A stretch of 64,000 bases of DNA, from the NCBI RefSeq assembly GCF_027947595.1, contig NZ_CP116257.1, positions 5,702,001 to 5,766,000 on the forward strand, read 5' to 3'. The DNA is from Streptomyces lienomycini. Lineage in GTDB: Bacteria > Actinomycetota > Actinomycetes > Streptomycetales > Streptomycetaceae. Positions within the stretch are counted from its first letter, which is position 1. Every line of letters starts with the position of its first letter. The translations under genes were made by a program, and so were the position numbers. The notes under the pieces are model-generated. The model did not search any database, had not been told where the DNA came from, and saw nothing but the letters and a program-made list of their open reading frames with translations. This document shows, piece by piece, positions 9,049 to 58,848 of the stretch.

Positions 9049-10114
9049 GGCCCAGGGGCCGCACGCCGAGCCGCGGGGACCCGATCTGCGACACCACGGG
9101 GACGCCGAGGTGCGCGACGACGGTTCGGCGCTGGTGGACCTCGCGGTGAACGTCCGCGCGGACACTCCCCCGGCCTGGCTGCGCGAGCACGTCGCCGCCT
9201 CGCTCGGCTCGCTCGCCGCCTACCCGGACGGGCGGGCCGCGCGGGCGGCGGTGGCGGCGCGGCACGGGCTGCCGGTGGAACGGGTGCTGCTCACGGCGGG
9301 CGCGGCGGAGGCGTTCGTGCTGCTGGCGCGGGCGCTGAAGGTACGCCGGCCGGTCGTGGTGCACCCGCAGTTCACCGAGCCGGAGGCGGCGCTGCGGGAC
9401 GCGGGGCACACGGTCGACCGGGTGCTGCTGCGGGAGGCGGACGGTTTCCGGCTCGACCCGGCGGCCGTGCCCCGGGACGCCGACCTGGTGGTGGTCGGCA
9501 ACCCGACGAACCCGACCTCGGTGCTGCACCCGGCGGGCGTACTCGCGTCGCTGGCCCGGCCGGGGCGGACGCTGGTCGTGGACGAGGCGTTCATGGACGC
9601 GGTGCCGGGTGAGCGGGAGGCGCTGGCCGGGCGGACGGACGTGCCCGGCCTGGTCGTCCTGCGCAGCCTCACCAAGACGTGGGGGCTGGCGGGGCTGCGC
9701 ATCGGGTACGTCCTGGCGGACCCGGGGACGATCGGTGAACTGGAGCGCGCCCAGCCGCTGTGGCCGGTGTCCACGCCCGCGCTGGCGGCCGCCGAGGCGT
9801 GCGTGGCGCCGCGGGCGCTGGCGGAGGCCGCCCACGCCGCCCACCGCGTCGCCGCCGACCGGGACCGTCTCGTCGCCGGGCTGGCGGGCTTCGCCGACGC
9901 CGGGCTCCGGGTCGTCGCACCGGCCGAGGGTCCCTTCGTCCTGCTCCGCGTTCCGGACGGCGCCGCCGTACGGCACCGGTTGCGCGGCCTCGGGTACGCG
10001 GTGCGGCGCGGGGACACGTTCCCGGGGCTGGGCGCGGACTGGCTGCGCCTGGCGGTGCGGGACCGGGCGACGACGGACGGCTTCCTGCGGGCGCTGGAGC
10101 GGGCGGTGCGGTGA
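9020..10114 (+). CDS. cobC: CobC-like PLP-dependent aminotransferase/decarboxylase (threonine-phosphate decarboxylase type)
   Basis: This 364-residue protein is a fold-type I PLP enzyme. It shows VVVGNPTNPTSV (cofactor-binding Asn), VVDEAFMDAVPGE, and SLTKTWGLAGLRIGY, whose lysine should hold PLP. In cobalamin clusters such proteins make the aminopropanol phosphate used for the nucleotide loop. It begins inside cbiX with a 29-base overlap and a weak ribosome-binding site, so translation is probably coupled. Closely related histidinol-phosphate aminotransferases share the fold; the cluster context decides the call. Confidence 0.82.
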   Translation: MDTHTPPPAEAQGPHAEPRGPDLRHHGDAEVRDDGSALVDLAVNVRADTPPAWLREHVAASLGSLAAYPDGRAARAAVAARHGLPVERVLLTAGAAEAFVLLARALKVRRPVVVHPQFTEPEAALRDAGHTVDRVLLREADGFRLDPAAVPRDADLVVVGNPTNPTSVLHPAGVLASLARPGRTLVVDEAFMDAVPGEREALAGRTDVPGLVVLRSLTKTWGLAGLRIGYVLADPGTIGELERAQPLWPVSTPALAAAEACVAPRALAEAAHAAHRVAADRDRLVAGLAGFADAGLRVVAPAEGPFVLLRVPDGAAVRHRLRGLGYAVRRGDTFPGLGADWLRLAVRDRATTDGFLRALERAVR

Positions 10115-10639
10115 CGGAACCGGCCGCCCGACCAGGCGGCCTGGCGGCCTGAGGGCGCGGGTCCCCCCGGCCGCCCTCGGCCGCTCCCCGTCCGGGCGGT
10201 TCCTCCTCCGCACGGCTCCCTCTCCGGCCGCCACCGTCTCCGGACGGCTCCCTCCCCGGCCGACACCGTCTCCGGACGGCTTCCCGTCCGGGCGGTCCCC
10301 CTCGCTCCCCCTCCGCACGGCCTCCCCTCCGCACGGCTCATCCTCCGCACGGCTCCCCATCCGCACGGCTCATCCTCCGCACGGCTCCCCATCCGTACGG
10401 CTCCGCCTCCGGACGGCTCCCTCCGGCCGACACCGTCTCCGGACGGCTTCCCGTCCGGGCGGTCCCCCTCGCTCCCCTCCGGACGGCTTCCCGTCCGGAA
10501 ACTCTGCCTCCAGCCGGCCCCCTCCAGCCCCCTCGGCCGCGCTCCCCCTCCGGGCGGCTGCCTCCAATCGGCATCCCGCCCGGCTGGCTCTCTCCGGCAG
10601 GCTCCCCGTCCGGAAACTCCCCTCCGGCCGGCTGCCCCG
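10115..10639. repeat. Non-coding field of degenerate TCCGnnCGG repeats
   Basis: This 525-base gap between cobC and a convergent gene is built of short units around TCCGGACGG, TCCGCACGG and GTCCGGGCGG, separated by CTCCCC spacers. It contains an exact 55-base direct duplication (10256-10310 and 10423-10477) and a 32-base tandem unit (10338-10369 and 10370-10401, one mismatch in the part compared). Open frames in it on both strands are Pro/Arg/Ser or Gly/Arg low-complexity products, which I do not accept as genes. The many palindromic cores could form transcription-terminating structure. Confidence 0.7.
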
Positions 10640-55271: not shown

Positions 55272-56873
55272 CTACCCCGCGAGCTCGGCCCGGGTGTCCC
55301 ACGGCCACTGGGCGTCCCGGCCGGCCTCCAGCAACGCGACCATCCGGAACGCGGCGTCGGAGAGACCGCCGAAGGTGTGCCGGTTCGCCCGGCCCGACGG
55401 GCCGTGGCCCGCCCGGTACCCGGCGAGGTTCCAGGTGTAGACCGGCACGTGCGCCGGGACCTGCTCGGTCGGGTCGCCGTGCCGGCTGTGGGCGTACTGC
55501 TCGTCGGTGACGATGAGCACCCGGTCGTGCTGCTCGTAGTGGCGCCGTACCGCCTCGGTGGTGTCGGTGCCGCCGAGGTCGCCGAAGCGGTCGAGGACCT
55601 TCAGCACCGACTCGCCCTCGCGGTACGTCACGCGGTTGCTGGACGTCCCGAACTCGACCAGGTCCGCGTCGGCCGCCCGCAGCGCGAGCGCCGTGCCGAA
55701 GACCGCCGCCGCGTCGGCCCGGTTCAGCTCGGAGCGGTCCGACATCCGCGAGTAGAACATCGAACCCGAGCGGTCCACGAGGACGAGTGTCCGGCCGGGC
55801 AGTGCGGGCACGTTGGCCAGCGAGTGGCCGAGCGCCTGCTCCAGCGGGTACGACCAGCGCAGCGACGGGGCGTGCCGGTACGCGGCGAGGTAGCGGAAGG
55901 GGAACTGCCGCGAGCGCGCCACCTCGGCCGGGTCGCTGATCCGCGCCGCCACCCGGGCCGCGACCTCGTCCGAGACACCGGCCTCGTCGAAGTTGCGCAG
56001 GTTGCGGAGCAATGCCATCGCTCCCATGGACGGAATCACCGCTTCCCAGGCCGCCTTGTCCATCGGGCCCTGGAGCCAGCCGGCCAGCATCTCCCACGTG
56101 ACGCCCGCCGCCGCGAGCCGCTCGGCACCGTCGGGCGCCGTGACCACCGCTCGCCGGTCCCGGACGGGCAGCGCCATCAGCTCGCGGTGCGCGGTCAGGA
56201 CGCGGTTCGAGGCGGGCGGCACCGCGGTGTCCGGGTTGTGCCGGCGGTCGAGGGCGTACTGGAACAGCTCGCCCTGCCACGGCTTGTCGGGGTCGGGCGC
56301 CGCGTGCACCAGGTTGAGGATGTCGCCGAAGCGGTAGCCCTTGGACGCGGTGTCGTACTTCAGCAGCGACTTGCCGTGGTAGAGCCGCCGCACGGCGTCG
56401 GCGATCCCCCGCTTGACCGGCTTGGGCACGGCGCGGCCGTGGGTCGCGGTCCAGTAGGCGAGGAGTTCGCCGGGCTCGTCCGGACGCCGCAGGACGGAGG
56501 CGGTCACCTGCCGGTTGGACGGTCCGTCGGTGACGCCGGAGTCCAGGCGGGCCTTGACGTACTCGGCGGCGCCGACGATCGACGCGGTGCGCAGGTTGCC
56601 CTCGCCGCGCAGCCAGCCGAGCAGGCCGGCCGTCCAGGACGGGTCGGAGAGGGCGAGTTCGCGCACGAGGGTGGTGAACCGGTCGTCGCGGGCGGCGCCG
56701 GACTCGTAGAAGGACTGCTGGGAGACGAAGTTGGCCACCGCGAGCAGGAAGAGTTCGGAGCGGGCGTCCCGCTCGGTGCCCCGGCCGCCCTCGTGGGTGC
56801 GCAGCACGCGGCCCGTCGACGTCACGCGCGAGGTGGGCTGCGCCTCGGCGGTCTTGGTGTTGAATCGCGCCAT
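55272..56873 (-). CDS. rsr: Ro60-family TROVE-domain RNA-binding protein
   Basis: The 533-residue protein is a bacterial orthologue of the Ro60 autoantigen. The HEAT-like TROVE ring covers residues 1 to about 350 (LFLLAVANFVSQQSFYESG, AEYVKARLDSG, YHGKSLLKYDTASKGYRFGDILNLVH). A von Willebrand A domain follows, with MIDAS residues Asp367, Ser369 and Ser371 in LVLVDRSGSMF and a GTDTTEAV threonine. Ro60 binds misfolded RNAs through its ring and Y RNAs on its outer face and works in RNA quality control and stress. Three Y-RNA-like elements lie directly upstream on the same strand. ATG 56873 follows GGGGGAATTCACC. Confidence 0.93.
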   Translation of the reverse strand: MARFNTKTAEAQPTSRVTSTGRVLRTHEGGRGTERDARSELFLLAVANFVSQQSFYESGAARDDRFTTLVRELALSDPSWTAGLLGWLRGEGNLRTASIVGAAEYVKARLDSGVTDGPSNRQVTASVLRRPDEPGELLAYWTATHGRAVPKPVKRGIADAVRRLYHGKSLLKYDTASKGYRFGDILNLVHAAPDPDKPWQGELFQYALDRRHNPDTAVPPASNRVLTAHRELMALPVRDRRAVVTAPDGAERLAAAGVTWEMLAGWLQGPMDKAAWEAVIPSMGAMALLRNLRNFDEAGVSDEVAARVAARISDPAEVARSRQFPFRYLAAYRHAPSLRWSYPLEQALGHSLANVPALPGRTLVLVDRSGSMFYSRMSDRSELNRADAAAVFGTALALRAADADLVEFGTSSNRVTYREGESVLKVLDRFGDLGGTDTTEAVRRHYEQHDRVLIVTDEQYAHSRHGDPTEQVPAHVPVYTWNLAGYRAGHGPSGRANRHTFGGLSDAAFRMVALLEAGRDAQWPWDTRAELAG

Positions 56874-56935
56874 GGTGAATTCCCCCGAATTCTCAAAGCC
56901 TGAACGTTCTCGAATATTCCGGAGGGAGACACGGC

Positions 56936-57090
56936 AGCGGAAGGGTGCCCGAGGTCGGAATCGGCGACGGGACCATGCGGATGCTCTGCCCTATTGAGCT
57001 ACACCGACCCGAAGTCGATGACGGGATTCGAACCCGCAACCGTCCGATCCGAGAAGTATCCGCTGCCTGCGCACCGGGCACCCTTCGACT
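56936..57090 (-). ncRNA. Y-RNA-like RNA with circularly permuted tRNA-like module (element 1)
   Basis: Read 5' to 3' on the minus strand. A terminal 11-bp stem is formed by AAGGGTGCCCG (57085-57075) and CGGGCACCCTT (56951-56941). The 5' strand continues with GGTGCGCAGGCAG, and GCGGAT pairs with ATCCGC. Next comes a T-arm with the loop GGTTCGAATCCC (57037-57021). A 7-bp acceptor-like stem CATCGAC/GTCGGTG (57020-57014 and 57008-57002) is closed by the loop TTCGG. A D-arm GCTC...GAGC (56999-56983) follows. T-arm before D-arm means the tRNA order is permuted and the acceptor end is sealed, so it cannot be charged. The 3' strand carries CCGACCTCGGG. It ends 62 bases before the Ro60 start. Bacterial Y RNAs with tRNA mimicry are known; this assignment is by structure read by eye. 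Confidence 0.78.
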
Positions 57091-57094
57091 GCTG

Positions 57095-57173
57095 GGCCTC
57101 CCGAGATCAAGTGGGCCGCGGCATGGGATTCTTTTTGCAGAAGAAGTAGCCGCGACCGGCGCACCGGGAGGTG
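57095..57173 (-). ncRNA. Minimal Y-RNA-like hairpin without tRNA module (element 3)
   Basis: On the minus strand, CCTCCCG (57171-57165) pairs with CGGGAGG (57103-57097); an internal loop follows (GTGCGCC opposite CACTTGATCT in part); then GGTCGCGGC (57157-57149) pairs with GCCGCGGCC (57122-57114) over nine positions with one G-T pair. The end loop contains TTCTT/AAGAA. The 5' strand repeats the GGTGCG...TACTTC pattern of the other two elements, and the 3' strand has CACTTGA, matching the Ro-binding strand of animal Y RNAs as I recall it. It looks like the Ro60-binding part alone. Confidence 0.6.
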
Positions 57174-57180
57174 CATGAAG

Positions 57181-57335
57181 TTATGGGTGTCCAGAGTTCA
57201 GGTCGGCGGAACCGACAAGGTGCTCTAACCCCTGAGCTACACCGGCGTGCTGTGCCGGTGACGGGACTCGAACCCGTGGCCGCCCCATTATGAGTGGAAG
57301 TAGGTCCTGCCTTCGCACCTGGACGTTCATCACTC
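57181..57335 (-). ncRNA. Y-RNA-like RNA with circularly permuted tRNA-like module (element 2)
   Basis: On the minus strand the RNA opens with GTCCAG (57324-57319), pairing with CTGGAC (57194-57189), then GGTGCGAAGGCAG. Next come a T-arm with ACGGGTTCGAGTCCCGT (57277-57261), an acceptor-like stem CACCGGC/GCCGGTG (57260-57254 and 57246-57240) with a 7-base closing loop, and a D-arm GCTCAGGGGTTAGAGC (57237-57222). A GTCGG/CCGAC hairpin and TGAACTCTGGAC finish it. A canonical tRNA would need the T-arm after the D-arm; here it comes before. A possible -10 box TAGAGT lies at about 57337-57332. It is the first of the three RNAs in transcription order. Confidence 0.78.
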
Positions 57336-57348
57336 TAAAAGGGCGGCC

Positions 57349-57362
57349 GTCGCCCGGGCGAC
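57349..57362 (-). terminator. Palindrome after the PhoX-type gene
   Basis: GTCGCCCGGGCGAC is a perfect 14-base palindrome five bases beyond the PhoX stop, followed on the minus strand by GGCCGCCC and TTTT. It probably ends the phosphatase transcript just before the Y-RNA elements begin. Confidence 0.55.
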
Positions 57363-57366
57363 CGAA

Positions 57367-58848
57367 TTAATGACCGGCGCGCTTGTGGCGCTTCCAGGGT
57401 CCCGTGATCGCCAGCATGATGCCCGGCGTCTGGATGTTGGCGTAGAGGGTCCGGCCGTCGGGCGAGAAGGTGACGCCGGTGAACTCGCTGTACTCGGGGT
57501 CGTCCTCGGTGCCGAGGTTCAGTTCGTTGCGGGCGATGGGGTAGGTGCGCCCGCTGTCCGTGGCACCGAACAGGTGCTGGACGCCGTCGCCGTCCTCGGC
57601 GATGACCAGGCCGCCGTACGGGGAGACGGTGATGTTGTCGGGGCCGTCGAAGGCGCCGTCGGCGGAGGGGTCGGCGTTGACGCCGAGCAGGACCTTCAGC
57701 GTGAGGGTGCGGCGCTTGGGGTCGTAGAACCAGACCTGGCCGTCGTGCGGGCGGCCGGGGCTCTCGTCACGGGCGAAGGAGGAGACGATGTACGTGCCGC
57801 CGTCGGCCCACCACATGCCCTCCAGCTTGCGCGCGCGGGTGACCTGGCCGGCGGTGAACTGCTTGCGCACGGAGGTGCTCTTCGCGTCGCGGTCGGGGAC
57901 GTCGACCCAGTCGACGCCGTAGACGGTGCCGGTCCTGGTGGCGCGGGAGAGGTCGTCGACGAACTTGCCGCCGGAGTCGAAGCACTTGAAGGCCTGGAGG
58001 ATCCCGGCGTCGTCGGCGAGGGTGCGCAGCCGGCCGCGGCCGTGCCGGAAGTGCTCCGGCGGGGTCCAGCGGTACAGGAGGCCGTTGGGGCCGGAGGCGT
58101 CTTCGGTGAGGTAGGCGTGGCCGCGCTTGGGGTCGACGACGACGGCCTCGTGGGCGTAGCGGCCCAGTGCCTTGACCGGCTTGGGGTCGCGGTTGGCGCG
58201 GCGGTCCTCGGGGTCGACCTCGAAGACGTAGCCGTGATCCTTGGTCATGCCGTTCTTGCCGGCCTTGTCCTCGGTCTCCTCGCAGGTCAGCCAGGTGCCC
58301 CACGGGGTGCTGCCGCCGGCGCAGTTGGTGGCGGTACCGGCGATGCCGACCCACTCGGCGACGTGGCCGCCGCGGCGGACCTCGACGACGGTGCAGCCGC
58401 CGGCGGCCGCCGGGTCGTAGACGAGGCCCTCGGTGAGCGGGACGGGGTGCGGCCAGTCGTCGCGGTGGCCGCCGAGTTCGTGGTTGTTGACGAGGAGCGT
58501 GGCGCCGCGCGGGCCGTCGAAGGTGGCCGTGCCGTCGTGGTTGGACGGGGTGTACTCGCCGGACTCCAGCCTGGTCCGGCCGGAGTACGTGATGATCTCG
58601 TACCGGAAGCCCGCGGGCAGGGCGAGGATGCCGTCCGGGTCGGGGATCAGCGGTCCGTAGCCGACTCCGTCGTGGCCGTGGTGGTGTCCGTGGCCGTGTC
58701 CGTGGCCGTGCTCCCTCCCCGCGCTGTCGATGTCCGTGGACGCGAGGGCGTTCGGCGCGGTGGCGAGGGCGCCGACGCTGCCCGCCAGCACGACCCCGGC
58801 GCCGGTGAGCGCGGATCGACTGGTGAAGTCCCTGCGGGTGAGCGACAT
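57367..58848 (-). CDS. PhoX-type phosphatase (DUF839), Tat-secreted
   Basis: The 493-residue protein starts with a twin-arginine signal (SLTRRDFTSRSALTGAGVVLAGS), followed by a His/Gly run (HGHGHGHGHHHGHDG) and the DUF839/PhoX beta-propeller (FRYEIITYSGR, LVNNHELGGHRDDW, WGTWLTCEETED, GRYAHEAVVVDPKRGHAYLTEDA). PhoX enzymes are calcium/iron-dependent alkaline phosphatases exported by the Tat pathway. ATG 58848 is chosen because the Tat signal begins there. A PHO-box-like repeat lies about 100 bases upstream. Confidence 0.88.
   Translation of the reverse strand: MSLTRRDFTSRSALTGAGVVLAGSVGALATAPNALASTDIDSAGREHGHGHGHGHHHGHDGVGYGPLIPDPDGILALPAGFRYEIITYSGRTRLESGEYTPSNHDGTATFDGPRGATLLVNNHELGGHRDDWPHPVPLTEGLVYDPAAAGGCTVVEVRRGGHVAEWVGIAGTATNCAGGSTPWGTWLTCEETEDKAGKNGMTKDHGYVFEVDPEDRRANRDPKPVKALGRYAHEAVVVDPKRGHAYLTEDASGPNGLLYRWTPPEHFRHGRGRLRTLADDAGILQAFKCFDSGGKFVDDLSRATRTGTVYGVDWVDVPDRDAKSTSVRKQFTAGQVTRARKLEGMWWADGGTYIVSSFARDESPGRPHDGQVWFYDPKRRTLTLKVLLGVNADPSADGAFDGPDNITVSPYGGLVIAEDGDGVQHLFGATDSGRTYPIARNELNLGTEDDPEYSEFTGVTFSPDGRTLYANIQTPGIMLAITGPWKRHKRAGH

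Follow-up and report, generated by a model that had tools for sequence, protein, structure and literature searches.

Y RNA-like units with tRNA-imitating heads precede the Ro60 gene in Streptomyces lienomycini and its relatives

In the genome of Streptomyces lienomycini, the gene for an orthologue of Ro60 (rsr) is preceded on its own strand by an array of three Y RNA-like units (herein referred to as A, B, and C; table 1), the heads of which imitate parts of tRNA and, in A and B, include a mimic of the anticodon arm. The window, that is, the whole stretch of 64,000 nucleotides that was analyzed (positions 5,702,001 to 5,766,000 of NZ_CP116257.1), belongs to a complete genome of 7.86 Mb. We regard it as very probable, from sequence and comparison, that this is a Ro60 ribonucleoprotein locus with the anatomy set out below. 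The overall explanation that we favor, and hold to be probable, is a Ro60 particle that presents tRNA decoys or baits, the decoy step of which is itself tentative. The heads of A, B, and C are apparently a new part of such a locus among the literature matches listed.

That the downstream gene encodes Ro60, as a preliminary description of this DNA had proposed, is borne out by a match of its product to the TROVE profile PF05731 (E = 1e-13, covering residues 272–332 only) and to two TROVE-domain chains in the PDB (E = 4e-29). The protein also contains the sequence DRSGS, which we take to be a metal-site-like motif. Its nearest relatives among the matches listed are Ro60 genes of Streptomyces, the best with 93–94% protein identity. 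Comparisons within the genus were made over 81 loci, namely the window and 80 Streptomyces relatives (the best 80 of 186 found). A match to PhoX, the upstream neighbor, falls within the fetched stretch in 76 of those 80 relatives and in one of 40 loci picked from the wider family, for which the flanks fetched were shorter. The sole RtcB match of the window's genome lies ~5.2 Mb from the Ro60 locus in genome coordinates.

The three units were found where the preliminary description had placed them, on the minus strand like Ro60, with 62 nt separating position 56936 from the Ro60 start codon at 56873; their bounds were then refined by comparison with relatives. All three share the 5′ words GGTGCG and TACTTC, 11 nt apart in each. 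The pattern GGTGCG-N(8-18)-TACTTC has four matches in the window, three of them within the array, against a mean of 0.03 in shuffled sequences, of which none of 100 reached four; a chance origin of the shared words is therefore rejected. The 3′ pattern GA-N-CTC-(G/T)GG noted earlier is indeed present in every unit (GAACTCTGG, GATCTCGGG, GACCTCGGG) but is uninformative alone, with nine matches versus 9.5 expected. The Rfam model of YrlA (RF02553) scores 44.6 bits against unit C and 30.9 against part of unit A and does not match unit B, so that none of the three reaches its gathering cut-off of 69 bits; the Rfam families of vertebrate Y RNAs gave no match to the units at E values up to 1. When sequences were folded singly, B (z = −3.7) and C (z = −2.4) were more stable than their shuffles and unit A, folded within bounds that truncated it at the 3′ end, was not (z = −0.5), and because A was unremarkable in this respect we relied on alignments. 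The idea that the units are tRNA genes was rejected: ARAGORN finds none in the whole window, and the acceptor strands of the units are joined by a loop where a functional tRNA has a free acceptor end.

Table 1. Features of the Ro60 locus and its array, in positions of the window.
Feature	Position	Strand	Basis or remark
Locus order	PhoX 58842-57367, unit A, unit B, unit C, Ro60 56873-55272	-	
Ro60/Rsr orthologue (TROVE)	55272..56873	-	Profile and PDB-chain matches; starts with ATG
Unit A	57189..57324	-	Y RNA-like, permuted tRNA-like head with whole anticodon arm; 50-row alignment A1, pair counts, model R1
Unit B	57095..57174	-	Ro60-type stem bearing an anticodon-arm mimic alone; 52-row alignment A2, pair counts, model R2
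Unit C	56942..57084	-	Y RNA-like, permuted tRNA-like head of type I; 29-row alignment A4, pair counts, model R3, Rfam YrlA match
A, anticodon-arm mimic UUCCA-CUCAUAA-UGGGG	57283..57299	-	RNAalifold without imposed structure; loop test
A, T-arm-like hairpin	57261..57277	-	Rfam YrlA alignment, pair counts, RNAalifold
A, acceptor-like 7-bp hairpin with short closing loop	57240..57260	-	Pair counts, RNAalifold
A, D-arm-like hairpin	57222..57237	-	Pair counts, RNAalifold
B, anticodon-arm mimic UUCUU-CUGCAAA-AAGAA	57129..57145	-	Loop test; four pairs by RNAalifold
C, T-arm, acceptor-like hairpin, and D-arm	56983..57037	-	Rfam YrlA alignment, pair counts
-10-like hexamer TAGAGT	57332..57337	-	13 nt before unit A
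Conserved block TTAATTCGGTCGCCC (TTAATTC-N2-TCGCCC)	57356-57370	-	Upstream of the -10-like site
rsr leader end, GAATTC-GGGGG-AATTC	56874..56895	-	Palindrome with the likely ribosome site in its loop

Pairing was counted against hand-made structures, on which the models R1 (A), R2 (B), and R3 (C type I) were also built. The alignments held 50 of 53 distinct A units, 52 of 66 distinct B units, and, for the two types of C described below, 29 (type I, A4) and 23 (type II, A5) of 73 distinct C units; they were thinned by hand, and the rows dropped were not all near-identical. Outside the 73 C units stand L028, L038, L058, and L063 (3′ anchor failed), L057, and three loci without C, and alignment A5 leaves out the Leu-type C units L014, L022, L029, L039, and L042, in which the variable region is short. 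Paired cells make up 99.8% of the total in A, 90.9% in B, 95.1% in C type I, and 98.0% in C type II, as against 28–63% for slid structures, and the corresponding values for the basal stem are 100%, 99.7%, 92.1%, and 97.6%. The co-variation called for by the preliminary description is also present: cells changed on both sides number 15 in A, 29 in B, 26 in C type I, and 44 in C type II, each above all 500 column shuffles. In A such changes are few; its basal stem is invariant, co-variation of the basal stem being confined to C, and only two of its pairs co-vary, a number reached by 144 of 500 shuffles. The variable-arm hairpin of C type II shows both-side changes in all five pairs. Given no structure, RNAalifold recovered from the A alignment a 5-bp anticodon-type hairpin (two pairs U-G) as well as the T-arm, acceptor hairpin, and D-arm, with other pairings in place of the middle stem, which it did not recover; for B, seven of the nine pairs of the middle stem and four of the anticodon-type hairpin were returned along with the basal stem. 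Pairing and co-variation together support the predicted structures of the units.

The heads differ in how much of a tRNA they imitate. Following a bulge, that of unit A runs through an anticodon arm, a variable region, a T-arm, an acceptor-like hairpin, and a D-arm, which is the order of a permuted tRNA, and that of unit C has a permuted tRNA-like shape opened within the anticodon loop and comes in two types, the second with an additional variable-arm hairpin. The YrlA-type module of T-arm, acceptor-like hairpin, and D-arm is thus found in A and C and is missing from B. In the window, the A loop CUCAUAA is that of tRNA-Met and the B loop CUGCAAA that of the genome's tRNA-Cys(GCA). We scored the two halves of each head against 48 tRNA sequences of the window's genome. 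With the halves summed, tRNA-Met was best in 36 of 50 A units, the window's copy among them, and Thr(CGT) in 14; Leu was best in 22 of 23 units of C type II; and C type I was mixed (Arg(ACG) in 11 of 29, Asn in eight, and others), the window's copy being closest to tRNA-Arg(ACG). Taken separately, the 3′ half of A favored Met in 30 of 50 units and the 5′ half Arg(CCG) or Val(TAC) in 47 of 50; in C type II the 5′ half was Leu in 23 of 23 and the 3′ half Ser(GGA) in 12 of 23; and in C type I the 3′ half was Arg(ACG) in 19 of 29, with Trp (13) and Asn (10) leading in the 5′ half. Because the halves of the head disagree, "derived from tRNA-Met" would be too strong for A, for which the observation is "closest over both halves," and our confidence in the favored explanation is slightly lowered. 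In the type I unit of locus L025, the 3′ stretch is identical to tRNA-Arg(ACG) at 29 of 31 places.

Three partial matches of R1 or R3 outside Y RNAs that were inspected span neighboring tRNA genes with few bases between them (two pairs of tRNA-Asn genes and one place in the window's own genome, the third-best R3 match there). Since such a tandem junction has the same order of parts as the head, we suggest that junctions of this kind may have given rise to the heads. A weak full-length match, L178, overlies a tRNA-Thr gene.

The loops of the units were compared with the anticodon loops of the window's own genome, 44 distinct ones taken from 56 tRNA sequences (68 tRNA places found). An anchored search took from each unit the best hairpin of at least 3 bp, with a loop of 4–9 nt and a 5′ strand starting no more than 4 nt from the conserved UUC. 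All 53 distinct A units have a 7-nt loop and all 53 have U33, and in 47 the loop equals a real one (six of eight distinct loops); among 66 B units, 54 have a 7-nt loop, 52 have U33, and 35 equal a real loop (seven of 20 distinct). Under the identical search unit C, which served as an internal control, yielded a 7-nt loop in 28 of 73 units, with U33 in eight and equality in none, whereas shuffled sequences gave 1,247 7-nt loops (U33 in 239, one equal) and the UUC sites of the window 124 (U33 in 15, two equal). Loops within one clade are not independent, and counts of distinct loops and of changes are given for this reason: A and B of the 81 loci (window and best 80 of 186) have 27 distinct 7-nt loops, 13 of which equal real anticodon loops, compared with a mean of 0.23 and a maximum of 3 for scrambled tRNA loops and, when the anticodon alone was randomized, a mean of 4.2 and a maximum of 10 over 2,000 sets. 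The A loop shows little variation at positions 35 (A in 53 of 60) and 36 (U in 59 of 60). Judged by stem (5 bp in the window's A and B), 7-nt loop, U33, and real loops, A and B bear anticodon-arm mimics and C does not.

Beyond the genus set, a 7-nt loop occurs in 41 of 91 units from the 40 family loci (89 with the UUC word; U33 in 31, 19 equal to a real loop), in seven of 15 free-standing, distant, or weaker units (U33 in seven, six equal), in 15 of 41 units from other families (U33 in 12, six equal; L223, which has no match, and L227, the match of which lies over a tRNA gene, contribute none of the 41), and in 56 of 153 units on viral contigs (U33 in 54, 31 equal, 11 of 27 distinct). The anticodon arm is strong in A and B of Streptomyces and present, not general, elsewhere. 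Loops exactly as in the tRNAs for Met, Ile, Lys, Ser, Thr, Phe, Asn, Asp, Tyr, Arg, Cys, Glu, Gly, Trp, and His occur among the units.

Units of this kind accompany Ro60 well beyond the window. They precede Ro60, in varying number, in all 80 relatives (the best 80 of 186), and the model search near TROVE genes that had been suggested located them upstream in all 40 family loci picked, some by weak matches: seven, 16, 16, and one of these loci hold one, two, three, and four units, respectively (R1, R2, and R3 at E up to 0.1, some weak; overlapping matches merged and a few weak or opposite-strand ones left out). At TROVE loci of other families, 17 of 19 have plausible units and two hold five. 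The co-occurrence of array and gene, the similarity to YrlA, and the co-variation together uphold the reading of the units as Ro60-linked Y RNAs. As far as the sequences show, none of the refuting outcomes set out in the preliminary description has arisen. The accompanying claim of an unusual three-RNA array with one reduced member survives in part: there are three units here, but three is not a special number (one to five elsewhere), and B mostly ends in an anticodon-arm mimic and is not merely reduced.

Across 150 family genomes, R1 matches of at least 50 bits occur in 82 of 91 with a Ro60 match versus one of 59 without, and class-wide in 23 of 30 TROVE genomes versus none of 216 others. Nine Ro60-positive genomes have no strong R1 match, and two of these (G013, G070) contain only fragments without a TROVE match. 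Conversely, G023 has a strong R1 match yet no TROVE match; this genome, 99% complete, carries a full-length Y RNA match of 92.7 bits (L166, contig C24) and a weaker R2 match on contig C3. Of 116 family R1 matches at this threshold, 99 lie no more than 1.5 kb from Ro60, two at ~2.5 kb, and the remaining 15 at a great distance or on a different contig; the fetched stretches of these 15 hold no Ro60, although at L165, which sits at a contig end, a gene beyond would be missed. The units tested as lying away from Ro60, also 15 in number, comprise 12 far loci, the two at ~2.5 kb (L175, L176), and a weaker match (L179); excluded were L173, in which the 5′ word is absent, and L174, a duplicate of L168. 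A -10-like site lies 12–14 nt ahead of 11 of them, and a terminator-like hairpin follows eight, against 36 of 213 control windows. More broadly, many of the units L161–L174, far from Ro60 or on other contigs, have their own -10-like site and some a terminator-like hairpin, and the neighbors scanned are ordinary genes. ARAGORN labels parts of two Y RNA-like units as tRNA-Cys (L167:4071-4139) and tRNA-Lys (L176:3930-4004), and automated annotation may therefore report Y RNAs of this sort as tRNAs. At L227 (G162:C174) a TROVE gene adjoins a row of tRNA genes, with a Y RNA match of 71.9 bits just beyond the fetched stretch.

The array itself varies in composition. Of the 81 loci (window and best 80 of 186), 60 have A, 69 have a full B, and 12 have a B mini-hairpin; C is of type I in 44, of type II in 34, and missing or a remnant in three. 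On a Ro60 gene tree made by a quick method (34 of 78 inner branches starred), the minimum numbers of changes are 11 for the presence of A, six for the state of B, and 20 for the type of C, and loop identity changes at least 26 times in A and 42 times in B (B loops of other sizes included). Some of these changes could reflect exchange of whole arrays between strains and not replacement of heads.

Signals around the array point to one transcription start. A TANNNT hexamer lies 12–24 nt ahead of the first unit in 81 of 81 loci (window and best 80 of 186), being 13–14 nt ahead of A in all 60 loci that have A and 20–22 nt ahead of B in all 21 that lack it; in the same set it is absent ahead of B where A precedes (0/60) and ahead of C (0/78). 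These sequences are most simply read as one start serving the entire array and fit a common transcript, from which we infer that the units are processed. The first part of the conserved block upstream, which overlaps the stop codon of PhoX, is too distant for an ordinary -35 element. Words resembling AAAT or TAAT lie about as far upstream at several Y RNAs encoded away from Ro60. At the other end of the array, a hairpin of at least 8 bp follows unit C in only four of 77 loci, and a palindrome GAATTC-G(4-7)-AATTC lies no more than 30 nt ahead of the start codon in 76 of the 81, making translational control at the likely rsr ribosome site possible.

Among known systems, the units are most readily compared with YrlA and other bacterial Y RNAs (Rfam RF02553; Salmonella, Deinococcus, Mycobacterium smegmatis), with which they share a basal stem, a bulge before the head, the permuted T-arm, acceptor-like hairpin, and D-arm, and a place beside Ro60/Rsr. 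The YrlA model, however, has no hairpin between the 5′ strand and the T-arm, where A has its anticodon arm and B has that arm only, and C type II differs from YrlA in its Leu-like variable arm. Circularly permuted tRNA genes likewise have the 3′ half ahead of the 5′ half and joined acceptor ends, but in the units a short loop closes the acceptor ends and the anticodon end is fused to a Ro60-type stem. In vertebrate Y RNAs the lower stem binds Ro60 and has 5′ and 3′ words like those of the units, but a tRNA-like head is not known. Chen in 2014 is reported to have described probable Y RNAs close to Ro60 across many bacteria and phages. The Salmonella rsr-yrlBA-rtcBA operon also combines Ro60 with more than one Y RNA gene, and a tie to tRNA damage is proposed for it in passages of PMC7790460; here, by contrast, the array precedes rsr, the neighbor is PhoX, and RtcB is remote.

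Parts of two papers describe YrlA as a tRNA mimic and, in Deinococcus, a Y RNA that tethers Rsr to PNPase (PMC8394870, PMC7790460). According to passages of the latter, tRNAs are cleaved in their anticodon loops during the Salmonella SOS response and YrlA is not cut by the anticodon nuclease, the authors raising, without a test, YrlA as a possible inhibitor of that enzyme (PMC7790460). Anticodon cleavage as a defense, and TROVE proteins in a small fraction of jumbo phages, appear in sections of PMC7824862; tRNA cleavage in S. coelicolor is mentioned in a portion of PMC8628891 (citing Haiser 2008); yrlA is named among the RNAs predicted in some mycobacteria in an excerpt of PMC9569102; and an extract of PMC4726728 briefly reviews bacterial Y RNAs. 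Among the literature matches listed, no title or abstract beginning concerns Streptomyces Y RNAs or anticodon arms in bacterial Y RNAs, and the main texts of PMC3765725 and PMC11678152, scanned for expression, hold no Y RNA terms.

We propose that one promoter-like site would drive the array of Y RNA-like units and then rsr, and that the units would be cut from their common transcript and bound by Ro60. Each unit would, by analogy with known Y RNAs, hold Ro60 on a basal stem formed by the GGUGCG and GAUCUC strands, above which stand a middle stem and the tRNA-imitating head. The heads would occupy or recruit tRNA-recognizing enzymes, above all something that handles anticodon arms, most plausibly as a decoy or bait against, or a sensor for, anticodon-loop nucleases, and a captured enzyme or RNA might be handed to PNPase, as in Deinococcus. 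That U33 is kept while the anticodon moves among real ones fits a putative partner that reads anticodon arms; the data gathered hold no link between the array and a nuclease gene.

It is also conceivable, if on balance unlikely, that these are ordinary YrlA-type Y RNAs, the heads of which merely tether PNPase or gate Ro60, their likeness to tRNAs and anticodon arms being leftover ancestry or a convenient fold. The role of the Deinococcus Y RNA, as described in the parts of PMC7790460 and PMC8394870 cited above, the resemblance of unit C to YrlA, the many units outside A and B without an anticodon arm, and the ease of an origin from tRNA genes, the tandem junctions of which score like the head, all agree with this account. 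Leftovers should decay, however, yet U33 persists in all 53 of the 7-nt loops of A and in 52 of the 54 of B as the anticodons change, the changed loops again equal real ones, and B retains an anticodon arm without any other part of a tRNA.

The units could instead be Ro60 sites in the rsr messenger itself, a cis-acting leader that controls rsr expression; the one promoter-like site, the short gap to rsr, the palindrome that 76 of 81 loci (window and best 80 of 186) have at the likely ribosome site, and the rarity of a hairpin after C would suit such a leader, which we nevertheless consider quite improbable, given that 15 of 116 strong matches lie far from Ro60 or on other contigs (L165 at a contig end) and that terminator-like hairpins follow 8/15 units away from Ro60 compared with 36/213 controls. 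A purely cis-acting leader was rejected. That they are decayed or permuted tRNA genes without any Ro60 connection is scarcely credible: the heads do resemble real tRNAs, and ARAGORN does give tRNA labels to parts of L167 and L176, but it recognizes nothing in the window, and the common basal stem and the tight link to Ro60 speak against it.

The reading of the units as tRNA decoys or baits on a Ro60 particle bears on what bacterial Ro60 and Y RNAs are for. If the heads imitate the part of a tRNA that nucleases cut, then the loops predict the relevant tRNAs, and hence the nucleases, for each species. Together with the Y RNAs encoded elsewhere than beside Ro60, arrays that reach five or six units in cells and viral contigs would make a modular RNA family, with one protein handle and exchangeable tRNA-like heads. 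As a broader and doubtful conjecture, actinobacterial and phage Y RNAs may be rapidly evolving tRNA decoys mounted on Ro60, the heads copying the anticodon arm, or the larger part of a permuted tRNA, from successive isoacceptors in a contest with anticodon nucleases of phages, toxin–antitoxin systems, or rivals.

Two exact-motif scans of viral contigs returned 55 and 14 stretches (65 loci), 52 of the 65 with a Ro60 match; some of these contigs may be prophage or mislabeled host DNA. RNA-repair families were absent from the 20 predicted genes near phage arrays. On one viral contig (L245, about 9300-10150), six Y RNA-like units lie within ~0.8 kb directly before Ro60. At the opposite extreme of size, the 12 Streptomyces loci with a B mini-hairpin include L027, L032, L033, L040, L058, L062, L063, L064, L073, and L077, in which B has shrunk to a hairpin of 33–38 nt that keeps only the GGUGCG and GAUCUC strands, a naturally occurring, minimal version of the putative Ro60 site.
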